This document shows, piece after piece, positions 1,710-7,607 of a stretch of DNA of 64,000 nt. The DNA comes from Streptomyces sp. BA2. Lineage in GTDB: Bacteria > Actinomycetota > Actinomycetes > Streptomycetales > Streptomycetaceae. Position numbers and translations under genes: made by a program. The first letter of the stretch is position 1, and every line of letters starts with the position of its first letter. The stretch lies in NCBI RefSeq assembly GCF_009769735.1, contig NZ_WSRO01000002.1, forward strand, positions 3,670,001 through 3,734,000, in the 5' to 3' direction. The notes below the pieces were generated by a model. It worked only from the letters and a program-made list of their open reading frames with translations, was not told the DNA's origin and made no database searches.

Positions 1710-2747
1710 ATGACCAAAGACAGATGGGGGACCGACCGGATGCCGCAGACCCACGCTCCGGGCACCAGGGGCATAGGCGGGCTCCGGCTTCGCTGGTGGA
1801 CGGAGCTGCCGCTGATCGTGCTGGTGTACGCCGCGTACTCGGCGGGACGCCTGCTGGTCCGCGGTGACGTGGCCGACGCCGTCGACAACGGCCTGGACAT
1901 ACTCCACGTCGAGAAGCTCCTGAGCCTCAACGCAGAGCACCCGCTGAACCGTCTCTTCACCGACCACTCCTGGATAGGCGTCCCCGCCGACTTCTGGTAC
2001 GCGTCGCTGCACTACCTGGTGACGCCCGTGGTCCTCGTCTGGCTCTTCCGCAGCCGCGCGGTCCACTACCGCGCCGCACGCGCGTGGCTGATGACCTCCA
2101 CCATGATCGGCCTGATCGGCTTCACGCTCCTGCCGACCTGCCCGCCCCGCCTGCTGAGCGAGGGGTACGGCTTCGTCGACACCATGGCGCAGTACAGCGA
2201 CTTCGGCTGGTGGGGCGGCGAGGCGAGTGCGCCGCGCGGGCTCGGCGGCATGACCAACCAGTACGCGGCGATGCCGAGCCTGCACGTGGGGTGGGCGCTG
2301 TGGTGCGGGGTCATACTGTGGCGTCACGGCCGTTCGCCGCTGGTCAGGACCGCGGCGGTGGCCTACCCCCTGATCACCACGATCGTCGTGATGGGCACCG
2401 CGAACCACTACTTCCTCGACGCGGTCGCGGGCGCCGTGGTGATGGGCGTCGGACTGCTCCTCGTACGGCCGGTGCTGCGGATCGCGGACCGGGTGAAGGC
2501 GAGCGTCAAACTCCCGTTCGGTGCCGCGCGACCTTCGTCGGGGACGGTGGCCGGGTCGAGGCCGGTGTCCCTAGCGGGCTCGCCGTCGGCCTCATCCGCC
2601 CCAGAGTCCTCAATTGTCAGTGGCGGGTGCCAGACTTCGACGGGTGAGCGAATTCCCCGGCCGCGCAAGCGGCCTGCCGAGCCAGGCGCCGAGCCGAGTG
2701 CCCGCCCCGCCGAAGCGGGGGACAGCACTAAGACAGCGGCTCGCTGA
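1710..2747 (+). CDS. PAP2-superfamily integral membrane protein (Aur1/Ipt1-like)
   Basis: A 345-aa polytopic membrane protein with about six hydrophobic segments between residues 30 and 265. It carries the Aur1/inositolphosphotransferase-type PAP2 motifs: LLPTCPPR, then MPSLHVGWALW (SxxH) and NHYFLDAVAG (catalytic second His). In actinobacteria such proteins act in lipid or polyprenyl-phosphate head-group transfer or dephosphorylation at the membrane. The last ~75 residues are low-complexity Ser/Pro/Ala/Arg, probably cytoplasmic and disordered. They overlap the start region of the next gene by about 100 bases, so either this tail or the nuclease start is drawn too long. The substrate is unknown. 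Confidence 0.8.
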   Translation: MTKDRWGTDRMPQTHAPGTRGIGGLRLRWWTELPLIVLVYAAYSAGRLLVRGDVADAVDNGLDILHVEKLLSLNAEHPLNRLFTDHSWIGVPADFWYASLHYLVTPVVLVWLFRSRAVHYRAARAWLMTSTMIGLIGFTLLPTCPPRLLSEGYGFVDTMAQYSDFGWWGGEASAPRGLGGMTNQYAAMPSLHVGWALWCGVILWRHGRSPLVRTAAVAYPLITTIVVMGTANHYFLDAVAGAVVMGVGLLLVRPVLRIADRVKASVKLPFGAARPSSGTVAGSRPVSLAGSPSASSAPESSIVSGGCQTSTGERIPRPRKRPAEPGAEPSARPAEAGDSTKTAAR

Positions 2748-3852
2748 GCTGCGCGGCCCCGACGTCCCCGCGTCACCGCTCGACGCCCGCGCGCTCGCGG
2801 CCCTCGCCGCGAATCCGGGCTGCCAGAGGCGGGCGCTGCTCGACGGCGCGGGCGTGGACAAGACGACGCTGGCGCGGTCGCTCGGCTCCCCCGCACCCTT
2901 CGGTCAGTCGCAGTTCGCGTTCATGCGGGGCAATGCCTTCGAGGCGAAGGTCAAGGCCGACGGCGGCGCGGAGCTGCTGCGTCTGGTGCACGGCAGGACG
3001 GGAGGCGGCCCGGAGCCCGTGCCGGGCGAGTCGTCCGTCCCCGACCTCGCCGCGGTGGGGCCCGAAGGCCGCGCGGCCCGCACCTCGCTGGCGCTGCGCG
3101 AGGCGACGCCGACGGAGGGCTGGACCCTCCTGGACCACCCCATGCTGGCCCTTGACGTGGCCGGGACGCCCGCCTTCCTCGAACCGGACGCGGTGGTGGT
3201 CCATCCCGACGGCAGCTGGACGGTCGTCGAGATCAAGTCCTTCCCGATGATCGACGGTTCGGCGGACGCGGCGAAGGTGGGCGCGGCGGCGCGCCAGGCC
3301 GCGGTGTACGCCCTGGCCCTGGAGCGGGTGGCGGCGCACATGGACCCCGCGCCCCACATCCGGCACCACGTGCTCCTGGTCTGCCCCAAGGACTTCTCGA
3401 ACCTCCCCACCGCGTCGGCGATCGACGTGCGCAAACAAATCTCGGTGACGAGGCGCCAGTTGGCGCGCCTGACCCGCATCGAGGACATCGCGGCAGCACT
3501 CCCGGAGGGCACCACCTTCGACGTGAACCGCCCCGCGGCCGAGCTGACGGCGGCGGTCGAGTCGGTCCCCGCGACGTACGCCCCCGAGTGCCTGGCCGCC
3601 TGCGAACTGGCCTTCCACTGCCGCGAGCGCTCCCGCGAGGAGGGCGCTGTGACGTCCCTGGGGCGTTCGGTGCGGGGCGAGCTGGGCGGCCTGACGACGG
3701 TCGCGGGGGTTCTCTCCGCGGCGACCGGAGCCTCGGGCGACCCTGCGGACCCGGCGGTGGCGGCGCTTCGGCGGGCGGCGGCGCTGCGGGCCGAGGCATT
3801 GTCTGGCGCGGGCGCCTCGGGCGGGCATACGGCGGGGGGCACGCCGTGCTGA
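2644..3852 (+). CDS. Cas4/AddB-like PD-(D/E)XK nuclease with likely iron-sulfur staple
   Basis: About 402 aa from the GTG at 2644; a GTG at 2698 is an alternative, and neither has a clear ribosome site. The RecB/Cas4 nuclease core is readable: FE in NAFEAKV (~99-100), Asp182 in EPDAVVV, Glu196 and Lys198 in VEIKSF, and Gln218/Tyr222 in QAAVYAL. Three C-terminal cysteines (C316, C320, C326 in ECLAACELAFHC) with C60 near the N-terminus match the split four-Cys layout of Cas4 and AddB-type 4Fe-4S nucleases, although the spacing here is C-x3-C-x5-C, not the usual C-x2-C-x5-C. It lies upstream of an unknown protein and an SF1 helicase on the same strand. Known relatives cut or process DNA ends; this one's target is unknown. 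Confidence 0.65.
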   Translation: MSEFPGRASGLPSQAPSRVPAPPKRGTALRQRLAELRGPDVPASPLDARALAALAANPGCQRRALLDGAGVDKTTLARSLGSPAPFGQSQFAFMRGNAFEAKVKADGGAELLRLVHGRTGGGPEPVPGESSVPDLAAVGPEGRAARTSLALREATPTEGWTLLDHPMLALDVAGTPAFLEPDAVVVHPDGSWTVVEIKSFPMIDGSADAAKVGAAARQAAVYALALERVAAHMDPAPHIRHHVLLVCPKDFSNLPTASAIDVRKQISVTRRQLARLTRIEDIAAALPEGTTFDVNRPAAELTAAVESVPATYAPECLAACELAFHCRERSREEGAVTSLGRSVRGELGGLTTVAGVLSAATGASGDPADPAVAALRRAAALRAEALSGAGASGGHTAGGTPC

Positions 3853-4054
3853 GCGCCACTGCGACGCGGTCGCCCGGCACGCACCACCGCCGCTCACACC
3901 GGCGCCCTGCGGCTGCCGTTCCCTTCACACCCAACCACCCACCGGCCAGCCCTTCAGTAAGCGGATGTCGCCGGGTAATCGGGTGGGCAGGTGGGGAGAA
4001 TCCGCCGCGAAGCGGCGGGAAAAGAACCCACAACCCGCCGGGAGGGACGGACCG

Positions 4055-5650
4055 GTGTCACTGATCGACAACCTCGCCCGTCTGGAGGCGGTGGCCACCG
4101 GCCGCGCCCAGCCGAGGGCGACCGTGCGCCACCGCCACCTCTCCCAGCGCCCCCTCGTCCTCGTCCCCCTCATCACCGCCGGCGAGGCAGGCGCTCCCCT
4201 CGGCGCCCTCGTCGGGACCGAGCGCACCTCGCCCCGCATCCTCGTCGTACCGCAGCCCCGCGACCGCGACCTCCGCTTCACCTTCCTGGCCCAACTCGCG
4301 GACACCGTCCTGGAGTACGTCGACTCGTTCACGGACGACGTCGAGGCGGCGGAGCGCAGCGAGACGGACCCGGAGACCGGCAAGCGCGTCAAGGTGGAGG
4401 TCGAACTCTGCGCGGACGCACCGCAGTTGATCGTCCCGAGCCGCGCCGGCATCGACTTCGTACGGCTCATCGGCCGCTCCACCCGTTTCCGCCGCACCGC
4501 CGAGCAGGACCCGGAGACCCCGTATCCCGCCCCGCCCCGCGTCCCCCTCCTCGGCCGCTGGCTGACCCACTTCGGGGAGCGGGCCCGCGTCCCGGGCTCC
4601 TCCCTCCTCGTCGCCATGACCGAGCTGCTCTCCCGGCACTGGGCCACCGGGCAGAGCAGCCTCGAAGACCAGCATCTCGGCGCCCTGCTCGCCTGGATCG
4701 AGGCCCCGGAAGGCACATCCGGGGCCGACGCCGCGCTCCGCGCCGAGCTGGCGCGGGACGAAGGCGGCCAGCTGCTCTGTCCGCCCGCGGGCCCCGCCAC
4801 GGATCCGGCGTTCGACAACCACCTCCTCGCCCCGGCCATCGAGCGCTACGACCGCGCGCGCGGCACCCTCGCCGGTGCCGAGGACGGCATCCAGGCGGAC
4901 ACCCGTCTCGCCGAACTGGCCGCGGCCGAGCGGGAGATCCGTTCCCTGATCGAGAGCAGGACCCGCCCCACCTGGGACGCGGTGTGGCGCGGTCTCGACG
5001 CGCTCTGCACGCTCCCGGAGGCACCGCACGCCACCGACCGCTGGACCCGCGACCGCTGGTCGTTCACCGGCCACCGCGACCGCGTCACGGCGGGCGAACC
5101 CCCGCAGCCCCGCGTCGACGACGCGGTGACGTCGGCGAACAAGCTGGCCACGCGCGAGCGCGAGCAGGCCAGGCTCGACGCCCAGGAAGCACTCGACGAC
5201 CCCCTGGTGATGGCGGGCCGCCGGCTCGCGGGCGAGGCCTTCGCGGGCGAGGTGACCGAGGTGGTCATGGCGTACAGCGAGAGCAAGCGCCCGAGCCCCC
5301 GCCCCCTGGTCACCGTCCGCACGGACGACCACCCGCACCTGGCCGAGCGCGCGAAGGTGTACCGCTCGCTCCAAGGCAAGCCGCAGACAGCCGAGTTCGT
5401 GACGTACGAGGCCGGGGGTGGCGGCGCTTCTGTCGTCCTGCGCATCACCGACAAGATGGGCCGCGGCAAGGAGCCCGAACCCGGCTCCGTGCCGGAGAAG
5501 GGCGACCGGATCTGCTGGACGCTCTTCGAGCACGAGCAGCGCGGCGGCCCCAAGCTCCCCGACCCCGAGGCGACTCCCTGGACCCACGGCGGCCCGCCGG
5601 GCGACGCCGCCGAGCGCCCTGACCCCGTGACGCCGGAGGACACCCTGTGA
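4055..5650 (+). CDS. conserved protein of unknown family between nuclease and helicase
   Basis: A 531-aa soluble protein with no family I recognise. The GTG at 4055 follows a good ribosome site (GGGAGGGA, about 8 bases away); longer in-frame starts reach into a poorly coding leader. The first ~150 residues are mixed alpha/beta, with the hydrophobic stretch RPLVLVPLITAG. The middle is charged and helical, with a probable coiled coil around 270-310 (LAELAAAEREIRSLIES). The C-terminal third has beta-rich segments such as GGGGASVVLRITDKMGRG, and the tail is acidic and Pro-rich. It overlaps the helicase start by 4 bases (GTGA), so the two are translationally coupled. An accessory or substrate-recognition subunit of the helicase is an inference from that coupling only. 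Confidence 0.75.
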   Translation: MSLIDNLARLEAVATGRAQPRATVRHRHLSQRPLVLVPLITAGEAGAPLGALVGTERTSPRILVVPQPRDRDLRFTFLAQLADTVLEYVDSFTDDVEAAERSETDPETGKRVKVEVELCADAPQLIVPSRAGIDFVRLIGRSTRFRRTAEQDPETPYPAPPRVPLLGRWLTHFGERARVPGSSLLVAMTELLSRHWATGQSSLEDQHLGALLAWIEAPEGTSGADAALRAELARDEGGQLLCPPAGPATDPAFDNHLLAPAIERYDRARGTLAGAEDGIQADTRLAELAAAEREIRSLIESRTRPTWDAVWRGLDALCTLPEAPHATDRWTRDRWSFTGHRDRVTAGEPPQPRVDDAVTSANKLATREREQARLDAQEALDDPLVMAGRRLAGEAFAGEVTEVVMAYSESKRPSPRPLVTVRTDDHPHLAERAKVYRSLQGKPQTAEFVTYEAGGGGASVVLRITDKMGRGKEPEPGSVPEKGDRICWTLFEHEQRGGPKLPDPEATPWTHGGPPGDAAERPDPVTPEDTL

Positions 5651-7011
5651 GTCCGACCGCCCCCTTCGACCGCGCGTCGTTCGACCCCGGCGCGGCGGCA
5701 GGCCGCGCCACGGACGCGATCCTGCACGACACGCTGCACGGCGCGCACCGCGGTGTCGTCGTCGACTCGCCGCCCGGCGCGGGCAAGTCGACCCTCGTGG
5801 TCCGCGCGGCCCGCGAACTGGCCGCCGCAGGGCGCCCGTTGATGGTGATCGCGCAGACGAACGCGCAGGTCGACGACCTGGTCCTGCGCCTCGCCGAGAA
5901 GGACCCCGAGCTGCCGATCGGCCGTCTGCACAGCAGCGACCCGGACGCGTACGACAAGGCGCTCGACGACCTGCCCTTCGTCCGTACGTCCACGAAGGCC
6001 GCCGACCTCGCGGGGCTCGACGTCGTCGTGTCGACCGCGGCGAAGTGGGCGCACGTCGACGTCACCAAGCTCGACGCGCCCTGGCGGCACGCGATCGTGG
6101 ACGAGGCGTACCAAATGCGCTCGGACGCGCTGCTCGCGGTGGCCGGGCTCTTCGAGCGGGCCCTGTTCGTGGGCGACCCCGGCCAGCTCGACCCGTTCTC
6201 GATCGTGGGCGCCGACCAGTGGGCCGGTCTCGCGTACGACCCTTCGGCGAGCGCCGTGACGACCCTGCTCGCGCACAACCCCGAGCTGCCCCAGCACCGC
6301 CTGCCGGTGTCCTGGCGGCTCCCGGCGTCGGCGGCCCCGCTGGTCTCGGCCGCGTTCTATCCGTACACGCCCTTCCGCAGCGGCACGGACCACGGCGACA
6401 GGCGGCTCGACTTCGGTGTGCCGTCCGACGGCTCGGGCCCGGACCGGGTGATCGACGAGGCGGCGGAGTCGGGCTGGGGCCTGCTCGAACTGCCCGCGCG
6501 GAACACGCCGCGCACCGACCCCGAGGCCGTACGCGCGGTGGCCCAGGTCGTCCGGCGCCTCCTCGACCGCGGCGGCGCGGCCACGTCGGAGCGCGGCCCG
6601 GACCCCACTCCCCTGACGGCCGACCGGATCGCCGTCGGCACCGCCCACCGCGACCAGGCGGCGGCGGTGCGGGCGATCCTCGCGGACATGGGCGTAAGGG
6701 ACGTCACGGTGGATACGGCCAACCGGCTCCAGGGCCGCGAGTTCGACGTGACGGTGGTCCTGCACCCGCTCTCCGGCCGCCCGGACGCCACCGCGTTCCA
6801 CCTGGAGACGGGCCGCCTCTGCGTCCTGGCGTCCCGCCACCGCCACGCGTGCATCGTGATCTGCCGAGCGGGCGTCAGCGAACTCCTCGACGACCACCCG
6901 TCGACGGAACCGGTCCAGCTGGGAGTCACGGTGAAGTTCCCAGATGGCTGGGAAGCGAACCACGCAGTGCTCGCCCGCCTCGCCGAGCACCGGGTGGAAT
7001 GGCGCCCGTGA
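5647..7011 (+). CDS. superfamily 1 DNA/RNA helicase (Upf1/Dna2-like ATPase)
   Basis: A 454-aa ATPase with the complete SF1 motif series: Walker A SPPGAGKST (41-49), Ia IAQTNAQVDDL (68-78), Walker B VDEA (151-154), III GDPGQLDP (176-183), IV SWRLP (222-226), V DTANRLQGREFDVTVV (356-371) and VI LASRHRHA (394-401). Motif spacing and the QGREFD element resemble Upf1/Dna2-type SF1B helicases and not UvrD/Rep. No nuclease domain is fused, but a Cas4-like nuclease sits two genes upstream, so helicase and nuclease are split here where Dna2 joins them. The start overlaps the preceding gene by 4 bases. The last 23 codons are duplicated just downstream. Confidence 0.85.
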   Translation: MSPTAPFDRASFDPGAAAGRATDAILHDTLHGAHRGVVVDSPPGAGKSTLVVRAARELAAAGRPLMVIAQTNAQVDDLVLRLAEKDPELPIGRLHSSDPDAYDKALDDLPFVRTSTKAADLAGLDVVVSTAAKWAHVDVTKLDAPWRHAIVDEAYQMRSDALLAVAGLFERALFVGDPGQLDPFSIVGADQWAGLAYDPSASAVTTLLAHNPELPQHRLPVSWRLPASAAPLVSAAFYPYTPFRSGTDHGDRRLDFGVPSDGSGPDRVIDEAAESGWGLLELPARNTPRTDPEAVRAVAQVVRRLLDRGGAATSERGPDPTPLTADRIAVGTAHRDQAAAVRAILADMGVRDVTVDTANRLQGREFDVTVVLHPLSGRPDATAFHLETGRLCVLASRHRHACIVICRAGVSELLDDHPSTEPVQLGVTVKFPDGWEANHAVLARLAEHRVEWRP

Positions 7012-7150
7012 ACCCGCGGGCACACCACCCCAAACGCCGGACGGAGTCCGGCACGCCGCCGGAGGCGGCCAAGAGAAACAGCCCAGATGGCTGGGAAGCG
7101 AACCACGCAGTGCTCGCCCGCCTCGCCGAGCACCGGGTGGAATGGCGCCC
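6939..7150 (+). repeat. 69-bp direct repeat: duplicated 3' end of the helicase gene
   Basis: Positions 6939-7007 and 7082-7150 are identical over 69 bases, offset 143. The first copy encodes the C-terminus of the helicase (…PDGWEANHAVLARLAEHRV). The second lies after the stop codon and ends in its own stop (TAG). The 74 bases between hold GC-rich sequence with a partial copy of a CAAACGCCGGACGG-type Streptomyces intergenic element. The second copy has no start or upstream domain of its own, so it is a remnant of a local duplication, not a gene. Confidence 0.95.
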
Positions 7151-7238
7151 CTAGACCGCCAGGCACCCGGCCCCCTTGCGCGGCAAGGGAGAATGGAAGA
7201 CGGCCCCACGGCCGGAAACCGTACGAGGAGGAAGAACC

Positions 7239-7607
7239 ATGGCGGAGCCCGAGCGGAGCCGGACCGAGCGGCGTCTACGACCCGCGCCCCTGCTCTTCGA
7301 GCCCGCGGAAGCCGTCGCCGACCCGGAGCACTTCTTCGACCTGGAGTCGATGGAGGACCCCCGGGAGCTCCTGGCCCGCGCCACCGAGCTGACCCACGCC
7401 TTCCGTGCCGCCACGGACCGTTCGGTCGAGTTCCAGGCGATCGCGGCGGCCCAGCTAGCCGACCCCCGGCGCTTCGACCGGCTGACGCCCGCCGCGATCG
7501 CCGAGCGCGCGCAGTGGACCGAGGACTACGCGAAGAAGATGGTCGAGTTCGGGCGGGATCTCCTGCGCGGGGCCGGTGCGAGTGGCGGCGGCGGCCCGGA
7601 GGCCTGA
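7239..7607 (+). CDS. small hypothetical protein (122 aa)
   Basis: A 122-aa soluble, charged, helical protein starting at an ATG preceded by GAGGAGGAAGAACC, a strong ribosome site. It has no signal peptide, membrane segment or cysteine. Recognisable stretches include HFFDLESMEDPRELLARATEL and FDRLTPAAIAERAQW. The C-terminus is Gly-rich. I do not recognise the family. It follows the nuclease-helicase genes on the same strand after the duplicated segment, about 230 bases from the helicase stop, and could be co-transcribed with them, but no functional link is visible. Confidence 0.65.
   Translation: MAEPERSRTERRLRPAPLLFEPAEAVADPEHFFDLESMEDPRELLARATELTHAFRAATDRSVEFQAIAAAQLADPRRFDRLTPAAIAERAQWTEDYAKKMVEFGRDLLRGAGASGGGGPEA

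Follow-up and report, generated by a model that had tools for sequence, protein, structure and literature searches.

A Streptomyces gene trio as a probable three-chain counterpart of the one-chain TM0106 nuclease-helicases

Dna2 couples a Cas4-like nuclease to a motor of helicase superfamily 1B (SF1B) in one chain, and it is not known to have a DnaQ-like or RNase H-like domain. The closest one-chain counterpart found for the genes described here is the TM0106 family (TIGR03491), in which an RNase H-like domain is situated between the nuclease and the helicase. In the window, the whole analysed stretch of 64,000 nucleotides from Streptomyces sp. BA2 (contig NZ_WSRO01000002.1, positions 3,670,001 to 3,734,000), the corresponding parts are distributed over three consecutive genes of one strand, which encode a nuclease (NUC), a linking subunit (MID), and a helicase (HEL). 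These three proteins, hereafter the trio, probably constitute one ATP-driven DNA helicase-nuclease over three chains, a split counterpart of the TM0106-type proteins; the window copy would serve core repair or replication, and extra copies would serve as an arm of defence loci. The trio is new only as a variant, because its part order is that of the TM0106 proteins. The original prediction had been a nuclease-helicase system of an undescribed kind, split and with an additional subunit by comparison with fused Dna2; the split and the extra subunit are supported, and the one-chain counterpart is rather the TM0106 family.

AdnAB, AddAB, and RecBCD possess UvrD-type SF1A motors and differ from the trio in that HEL has no match to PF00580. 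UvrD-Cas4 fusions combine a Cas4-like nuclease with an SF1 helicase, occur with type III Mod/Res genes, and are assigned by Hudaiberdiev et al. 2017 (PMC5704561), in the passages available, an ancillary role as parts of defence systems. However, their helicase is described there as UvrD-like (3'-5') and fused, whereas HEL is an AAA_11/AAA_12 SF1B helicase accompanied by a third subunit. Hachiman HamAB is described, in the passages available, as a nuclease-helicase defence complex whose helicase senses DNA damage, and that helicase is tabulated under DEAD/DEAH box domains (PMC10952713); HamAB has two subunits, whereas the trio has three, of which NUC and MID match no PADLOC model. Mokosh resembles the trio in the SF1 helicase part (MkoC and MkoA) and differs from it by the same two proteins. 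A literature search of open-licence PMC papers without preprints, including passages of PMC12839542, PMC10952713, PMC10482375, and PMC5704561, returned no description of the trio and no mention of the TM0106 family, TIGR03491, or a RecB-like putative nuclease.

Many of the next-best helicases in the search of the phylum lie in long frames. Nine TM0106-like loci were fetched and six scanned, with L178, L182, and L183 left out. All six scanned chains exceed the cut-offs for TIGR03491, RNase_H_2, AAA_11, and AAA_12, and they run in the order nuclease, RNase H-like domain, spacer, and helicase within 1102–1166 residues, whereas the trio uses three chains, or two in the fused branch described below. 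Both the TM0106 proteins and the trio contain, in the same order, a Cas4/RecB-like nuclease with four Cys and an SF1B helicase. The invariant Cys of TM0106 (C21, C214, C217, and C220) comprise one N-terminal and three C-terminal residues, as in NUC, and HEL is homologous to the TM0106 helicase part (hhalign 99.7%, 358 columns). Furthermore, the RNase H-like fold of the MID and fused-protein models looks like that of TM0106. However, the TM0106 proteins have a recognizable RNase_H_2 domain with an invariant D-x-E, whereas Streptomyces-type MID has no D-x-E at the ExoI place; RNase_H_2 had no match in NUC, MID (P0002), P0244, or P0124, and TIGR03491 had none in NUC or MID (NCBIfam, E up to 1). 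Homology of the MID sequence to TM0106 or to the C-terminal half of the fused protein is unsupported by profile comparison, and the case for MID lies in fold and order.

The two architectures seldom share a genome. TIGR03491 occurs in 100 of 296 class genomes (99 over cut-off) and the trio in 48; both are present in two genomes (G050 and G430) vs 16.2 expected (Fisher P 1.4e-7, kinship not corrected). TIGR03491 has no match at E 1e-10 in any of the 27 genomes of the window's genus that carry the trio. The control search with this model gave a match in Corynebacterium glutamicum. The fused-form genomes G357 and G392 also have TM0106; the settings of the fused sets in these two genomes and of the trio in G430 are defence-like, and all three sets may be extra copies.

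NUC shows the Cas4 nuclease fold, and the Cas4-like active site and Cys set that had been predicted for it are conserved. In 75 named Streptomyces rows, C60, E100, D182, E196, K198, C316, C320, and C326 are invariant wherever sequence is present (73 to 75 rows per site, the gaps being the cut open reading frames (ORFs) of L011 and L032). NUC rows were obtained from 103 of 110 loci. In three of the other 28 rows (L144, L145, and L161) the active site is altered and the Cys are kept. The copies of L144 and L145 are probably dead, judging from sequence, because they carry E196L, K198R, and E100H; in L161, E196 alone of E196 and K198 is altered, and NUC of L137 is intact. The presumed Fe-S site would keep the nuclease fold together. 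NUC has only sub-threshold Pfam matches (PDDEXK_1, E 0.07); searches of NCBIfam and PADLOC at E up to 1 gave nothing. A CRISPR role was considered and finds no support, since NUC matched no Cas_Cas4 or cas4 model, its neighbours not having been searched with cas models.

MID belongs to no recognized family, as had been stated: its best Pfam E-value is 0.083, short of the cut-off, and neither NCBIfam nor PADLOC gave a match at E up to 1. Its identity to Streptomyces relatives reaches 93%, and in the named relatives listed it is annotated as hypothetical protein, in one case as SseB family. The structure prediction that had been suggested for this protein yielded a model whose N-terminal half shows a DnaQ-like (DEDD) exonuclease fold, accompanied by long helices and a barrel that resembles subdomain 1B of the Upf1/Sen1 helicases. 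In 14 rows of Streptomyces-type MID, the positions within residues 20–245 that hold Asp or Glu in at least 90% of rows are 31, 44, 175, 204, 205, and 231, with no D-x-E among them; these are candidate catalytic acids read from the alignment. The N-terminal DnaQ-like domain of Streptomyces-type MID is probably devoid of its own catalysis.

HEL exceeds the Pfam cut-offs of AAA_11, AAA_30, AAA_12, and Viral_helicase1, and its nearest PDB relative by sequence is Dna2 (5eaw, E 3.4e-8), in agreement with the Upf1/Dna2-like SF1B helicase originally proposed. The residues K47, D152, E153, Q180, R224, Q362, G363, and R390 are kept in 107 or 108 of 108 rows, and among them we take Walker A, Walker B, and motif V/VI to be represented. 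The stalk and the 1B barrel are absent from the HEL chain, unlike in Upf1-like SF1B helicases. The Walker A Lys, residue 47 in HEL, lies at 33 to 60 across the eight family helicases checked, HEL included; in three TM0106 chains Walker A begins at 728 to 759. In PADLOC, HEL gives partial matches to MkoC (E 9.5e-8) and MkoA (E 2.2e-7), profiles of more than 1100 positions. An identity as PLuB was rejected: the best NCBIfam match, NF040671 PLuB_AAA, reaches 57.5 bits vs a cut-off of 999, which denotes domain resemblance, and the papers listed in a search for it mention no 'PLuB system'.

The three genes travel together. In an even sample of 198 phylum genomes, single-sequence searches detected MID in 9 genomes, NUC in 11, and HEL-like proteins, other SF1B helicases among them, in 24. 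Profile searches of the 296 class genomes (limits of E 1e-25 for HEL and 1e-6 for NUC and MID) gave HEL in 50, NUC in 49, and MID in 48, and the trio is complete in all 48 MID genomes. NUC adjoins all 52 MID copies, within 252 bases of the match, and HEL lies near 49 of them, at up to 1513 bases. The three copies with no HEL nearby belong to G333, where the contig breaks, and to G278 and G377; the two genomes with HEL and no MID, G357 and G392, carry the fused form. In G278 (L149/L150) and G377 (L151/L152), HEL is on the same strand as NUC-MID at a distance of 36 and 49 kb, respectively. At 80 named Streptomyces loci, NUC is adjacent in 74/74 with upstream room and HEL in 79/79 with downstream room, more than chance would give, and the gene setting is similar in the five core loci compared. 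Of the 160 genomes of the window's family, 157 have MID. A search for HEL at E 1e-10 was negative in the other three; it included no positive genome, although the same profile matched in the class search. In G415, a Streptomyces, NUC, MID, and HEL are all absent, and the trio is missing as a unit, because the gene of the PAP2 family and the 143-residue ORF that border it elsewhere lie side by side. In G497, the PAP2 gene and a histidine-phosphatase-like neighbour were likewise not found in the stretch examined; G587 is 71% complete, and these two MID-less genomes were searched for MID and HEL. The sequence-based part of the case thus comprises the Cas4-like active-site and Cys pattern in NUC, the SF1B motor core in HEL, and the joint presence and, in G415, joint absence. 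Neither outcome named in the original prediction as refuting it, rare co-occurrence of the genes or a lack of conservation in the Cys and nuclease residues, was observed, apart from the three altered active sites.

Relatives at E up to 0.001 number at least 3798 for MID, 368 for the G165 type, and 707 for the fused type (about 8000 candidates each), and the organisms named among the 120 matches listed per protein search are all, as we recognize them, Actinomycetota. Three scans of viral contigs gave no relative, and a phage collection gave no HEL relative at E 1e-15. Three plasmid records match HEL at E 1e-30, one of which is counted as chromosome-sized because it measures 11.9 Mb; two match the fused protein and none P0124.

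Two further arrangements exist. In G165, outside the class, NUC, a 519-residue ORF, and HEL follow in the same order with overlaps, adjoining a phage-type integrase, and the 519-residue ORF is a MID (hhalign 99.1%, E 4e-19, 441 columns). A third branch has NUC joined to a MID-like half in one chain of 896 (G357) or 924 (G392) residues, followed by a separate helicase of 501 residues. Residues 1–320 of the fused protein are homologous to NUC (95.2%, E 3e-8), and D369, D433, D438, and D531, with others, are kept in 68 fused-type rows; the exonuclease fold in the model of the fused relative resembles RNase T. Fused-type proteins also have invariant Cys and His residues near the C-terminus (C812, H824, C827, C828, and H831, within residues 812–831 of P0244), which perhaps form a metal site.

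In the proposed mechanism, the C-terminal helices and barrel of the modelled MID would act as the stalk and 1B subdomain missing from HEL, and its N-terminal DnaQ-like domain would bind single strands or dock NUC. MID would complete the motor and join it to the nuclease. Judging from family knowledge, HEL would load on single-stranded DNA, travel 5' to 3', and feed the strand to the NUC site, where NUC would trim ends or flaps. For the core copy, the substrates would be ends or flaps that arise during repair or replication. The extra copies would be the DNA-degrading arm of defence loci, acting on ends generated by SbcCD, Wadjet, or restriction enzymes. By analogy, this role may be likened to the ancillary role assigned, in the passages available, to the UvrD-Cas4 fusions, which also occur with type III Mod/Res genes (PMC5704561).

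Several results weigh against the trio being one split TM0106-type machine. Neither the MID model nor the fused-protein model had a Foldseek match at E up to 0.001; the fold likenesses come from a second look through the Foldseek rows, which does not exclude folds outside them. The 1B-like barrel that MID would supply to HEL is a likeness in the model and ties with ferredoxin-reductase barrels. By sequence, NUC meets TM0106 weakly (11.9%, E 0.0025), with the active site and Cys roughly in register, MID does not meet it (0.3%), and the fused protein meets it only around the Cys cluster (5.5%). The C-terminal half of the fused protein has no detectable relation to MID (0.4%) or the G165 type (2.4%). 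Three NUC copies have an altered active site, and the distant HEL of G278 and G377 means that a shared operon is not essential. The joint complex is a candidate derived from genes and single-protein models. The separation from TM0106 has limits of its own: outside the window's genus, 2 of 21 trio genomes have TM0106 vs 7.8 expected (P 0.004, kinship uncorrected), and the sole trio genomes of families f3 (G050) and f95 (G430) have it too. In f68 (7 trio, 13 TM0106, overlap 0) and f69 (10 trio, 14 TM0106, overlap 0) the figures were computed after the lists had been seen, with minimum family sizes and kinship ignored.

The extra copies and their neighbours were counted at hand-chosen rather than random loci, with PADLOC scans limited to loci other than the core ones. 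Eight second copies were examined in the window's family (L137, L144, L145, L146, and L169–L172). A gene for a protein of about 265–325 residues (c4) lies just upstream of NUC in all eight; the c4 protein of L153 has no Pfam or PADLOC match. Divergent SbcC and SbcD genes are present at four of the eight, an SF2 helicase follows HEL at five, and a divergent PD-(D/E)XK gene occurs at two, L144 and L145, the same loci as two of the altered NUC copies. Two Streptomyces plasmids, one of them from NBC_01244, carry the JetABCD genes of Wadjet type I after c4-NUC-MID-HEL, identified by PADLOC as JetA1–JetD1 on L184 and by record names on L185; the two regions are related, because they are 89% identical, and the second plasmid bears SbcC and SbcD in pieces. 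The Jet models had no match for NUC, MID, or HEL, and the Jet genes are neighbours only. G430 carries SbcC and SbcD relatives and DUF2397/DUF2398 genes, the latter presumably Wadjet-like. Of four fused-type loci, three (the one in G392 and those on two Rhodococcus plasmids that share 96% identity) carry genes for a type III methyltransferase and a Res-like helicase right behind HEL, and the fourth (G357) bears a divergent Mrr/ResIII/ISP-coupler protein. ZacC, a component of Azaca (ZacABC), was identified in G392 (PDLC03830, 1065 bits) and in none of the other PADLOC-scanned proteins, a scan that excluded the window's neighbours; ZacA/ZacB had no match among the trio proteins, the PADLOC content of these two models being unverified.

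Such neighbourhoods can be read to mean that the trio, core copy included, is primarily an anti-phage or anti-plasmid system rather than a repair enzyme. The extra copies beside Wadjet type I on related plasmids, SbcCD at half of the second copies, the type III genes at fused-type loci, the integrase beside the G165 trio, and the partial matches of HEL to MkoC and MkoA of Mokosh (E about 1e-7) are all consistent with it. However, defence genes are usually patchy in distribution, whereas the core copy is near-universal in its family and similarly set in the loci compared; the TM0106 family that the trio apparently replaces is likewise widespread (100/296), and NUC and MID match no PADLOC model. 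A trio that is primarily defensive, also in its core copy, is unlikely. The original preference for housekeeping over defence fits the window copy and leaves out the extra copies, whose neighbours include Wadjet, SbcCD, and restriction-modification genes and some of which are on plasmids. Combining both settings, the helicase-nuclease may tentatively be seen as a modular end-processing engine, a core repair enzyme in Streptomycetaceae that was repeatedly recruited with SbcCD, the c4 protein, and an SF2 helicase to degrade DNA after cleavage by Wadjet or by type III or other restriction systems, with a separate PD-(D/E)XK gene replacing the dead-looking NUC (G304 and G380).

An action on RNA or RNA-DNA hybrids in the manner of Sen1/senataxin, with MID giving the RNA contact, is improbable. 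The MID barrel and HEL do resemble the Sen1/SETX/Upf1 helicases, which act on RNA according to the available passages of PMC5452015, and the fused relative has its RNase T-like model; however, NUC is Cas4-like, a DNA nuclease fold, the recurrent SbcCD, Wadjet, and methyltransferase neighbours act on DNA, and among solved structures HEL is closest in sequence to Dna2. It is just as hard to credit that the three proteins share an operon and form no machine, as the unlinked HEL of G278 and G377, which belong to one family, and a complex resting on genes and single-protein models might suggest, since NUC is fused to a MID-like half in the third branch, HEL lacks the 1B that MID appears to carry, and the trio co-occurs constantly and is jointly absent from G415.

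The split helicase-nuclease is of interest because it is near-universal in the family, rarely overlaps with TM0106, and recurs in defence-like loci. MID, near-universal in the family, is still annotated as hypothetical; if the proposal is true, a major genus would gain a named enzyme of core DNA processing, a natural system would be available for mixing and separately testing nuclease, linker, and motor, and there would be a hint at what the TM0106-family proteins do and at one DNA-degrading arm common to several defence systems.

The coordinates of the features are collected in Table 1. As predicted, the three genes follow one another on one strand and the last two overlap by GTGA. The third-position GC is high in all three ORFs. 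The gene caller was crude, and some named ORFs are shadow frames.

Table 1. Features of the trio and its borders in the window (positions in the 64,000-nucleotide stretch).
Feature	Position	Strand	Remarks
NUC	2614..3852	+	Cas4/RecB-like PD-(D/E)XK nuclease with four conserved Cys; start at 2614, 2620, or 2644
C60, first Cys of presumed 4Fe-4S site	2821..2823	+	Invariant in NUC alignment; cluster inferred
Active-site core D182...E196-x-K198	3187..3237	+	Invariant in NUC alignment; E196 and K198 altered in L144 and L145, E196 alone of these in L161
C316-x3-C320-x5-C326, C-terminal Cys of presumed 4Fe-4S site	3589..3621	+	From NUC alignments
MID	4055..5650	+	531-residue linking subunit without known family
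MID residues 31–377	4145..5185	+	DnaQ/DEDD exonuclease-like fold continuing into helical part; model
MID residues 392–493	5228..5533	+	Beta barrel like Sen1 subdomain 1B; model
GTGA overlap of MID stop and HEL start	5647..5650	+	TGA 5648–5650, GTG at 5647
HEL	5647..7011	+	454 residues; SF1B (Upf1/Dna2-like) helicase core without stalk or 1B
HEL Walker A motif	5767..5790	+	G44, G46, and K47 in 108/108 aligned rows
PAP2-family gene	1710..2747	+	Pfam PAP2_3; upstream border of trio
143-residue ORF	7176..7607	+	No Pfam family; downstream border of trio

From start 2644, NUC spans 2644–3852 and 402 residues. The true start may be TTG 2614 or GTG 2620, because the ORFs of the relatives L140, L141, and L143 hold conserved residues (SVxDARL...) ahead of the position of 2644. 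Whichever start applies, NUC and the 3' end of the PAP2 ORF share more than 100 bases in different frames (2614–2747 in the window), and the longest ORFs of L139, L140, L141, and L143 show this overlap too. As far as known, the PAP2-family gene stands outside the NUC/MID/HEL machine.

Among other loci, the c4 family (L153:6877-7674 and relatives) also lies directly upstream of NUC in the f68 loci L153, L155, and L156 and in Nonomuraea (L186). Some extra copies lie near a terminus of a long contig or linear plasmid, such as G588:C1:15413 (contig of 8,867,154 bases) and NZ_CP108489 (284.6 kb of 300 kb). At L148:92-13752, ZacC, a 510-residue protein of no assigned function, fused NUC-MID, HEL, the type III methyltransferase, and the Res-like helicase have an operon-like arrangement, a set that may be a larger undescribed defence system. 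In the window, a 93-base direct repeat (6939–7031 and 7082–7174, 90% identical, spacing 143) copies the 3' end of the helicase gene just past its stop and re-encodes HEL residues 430–454 with 92% identity.

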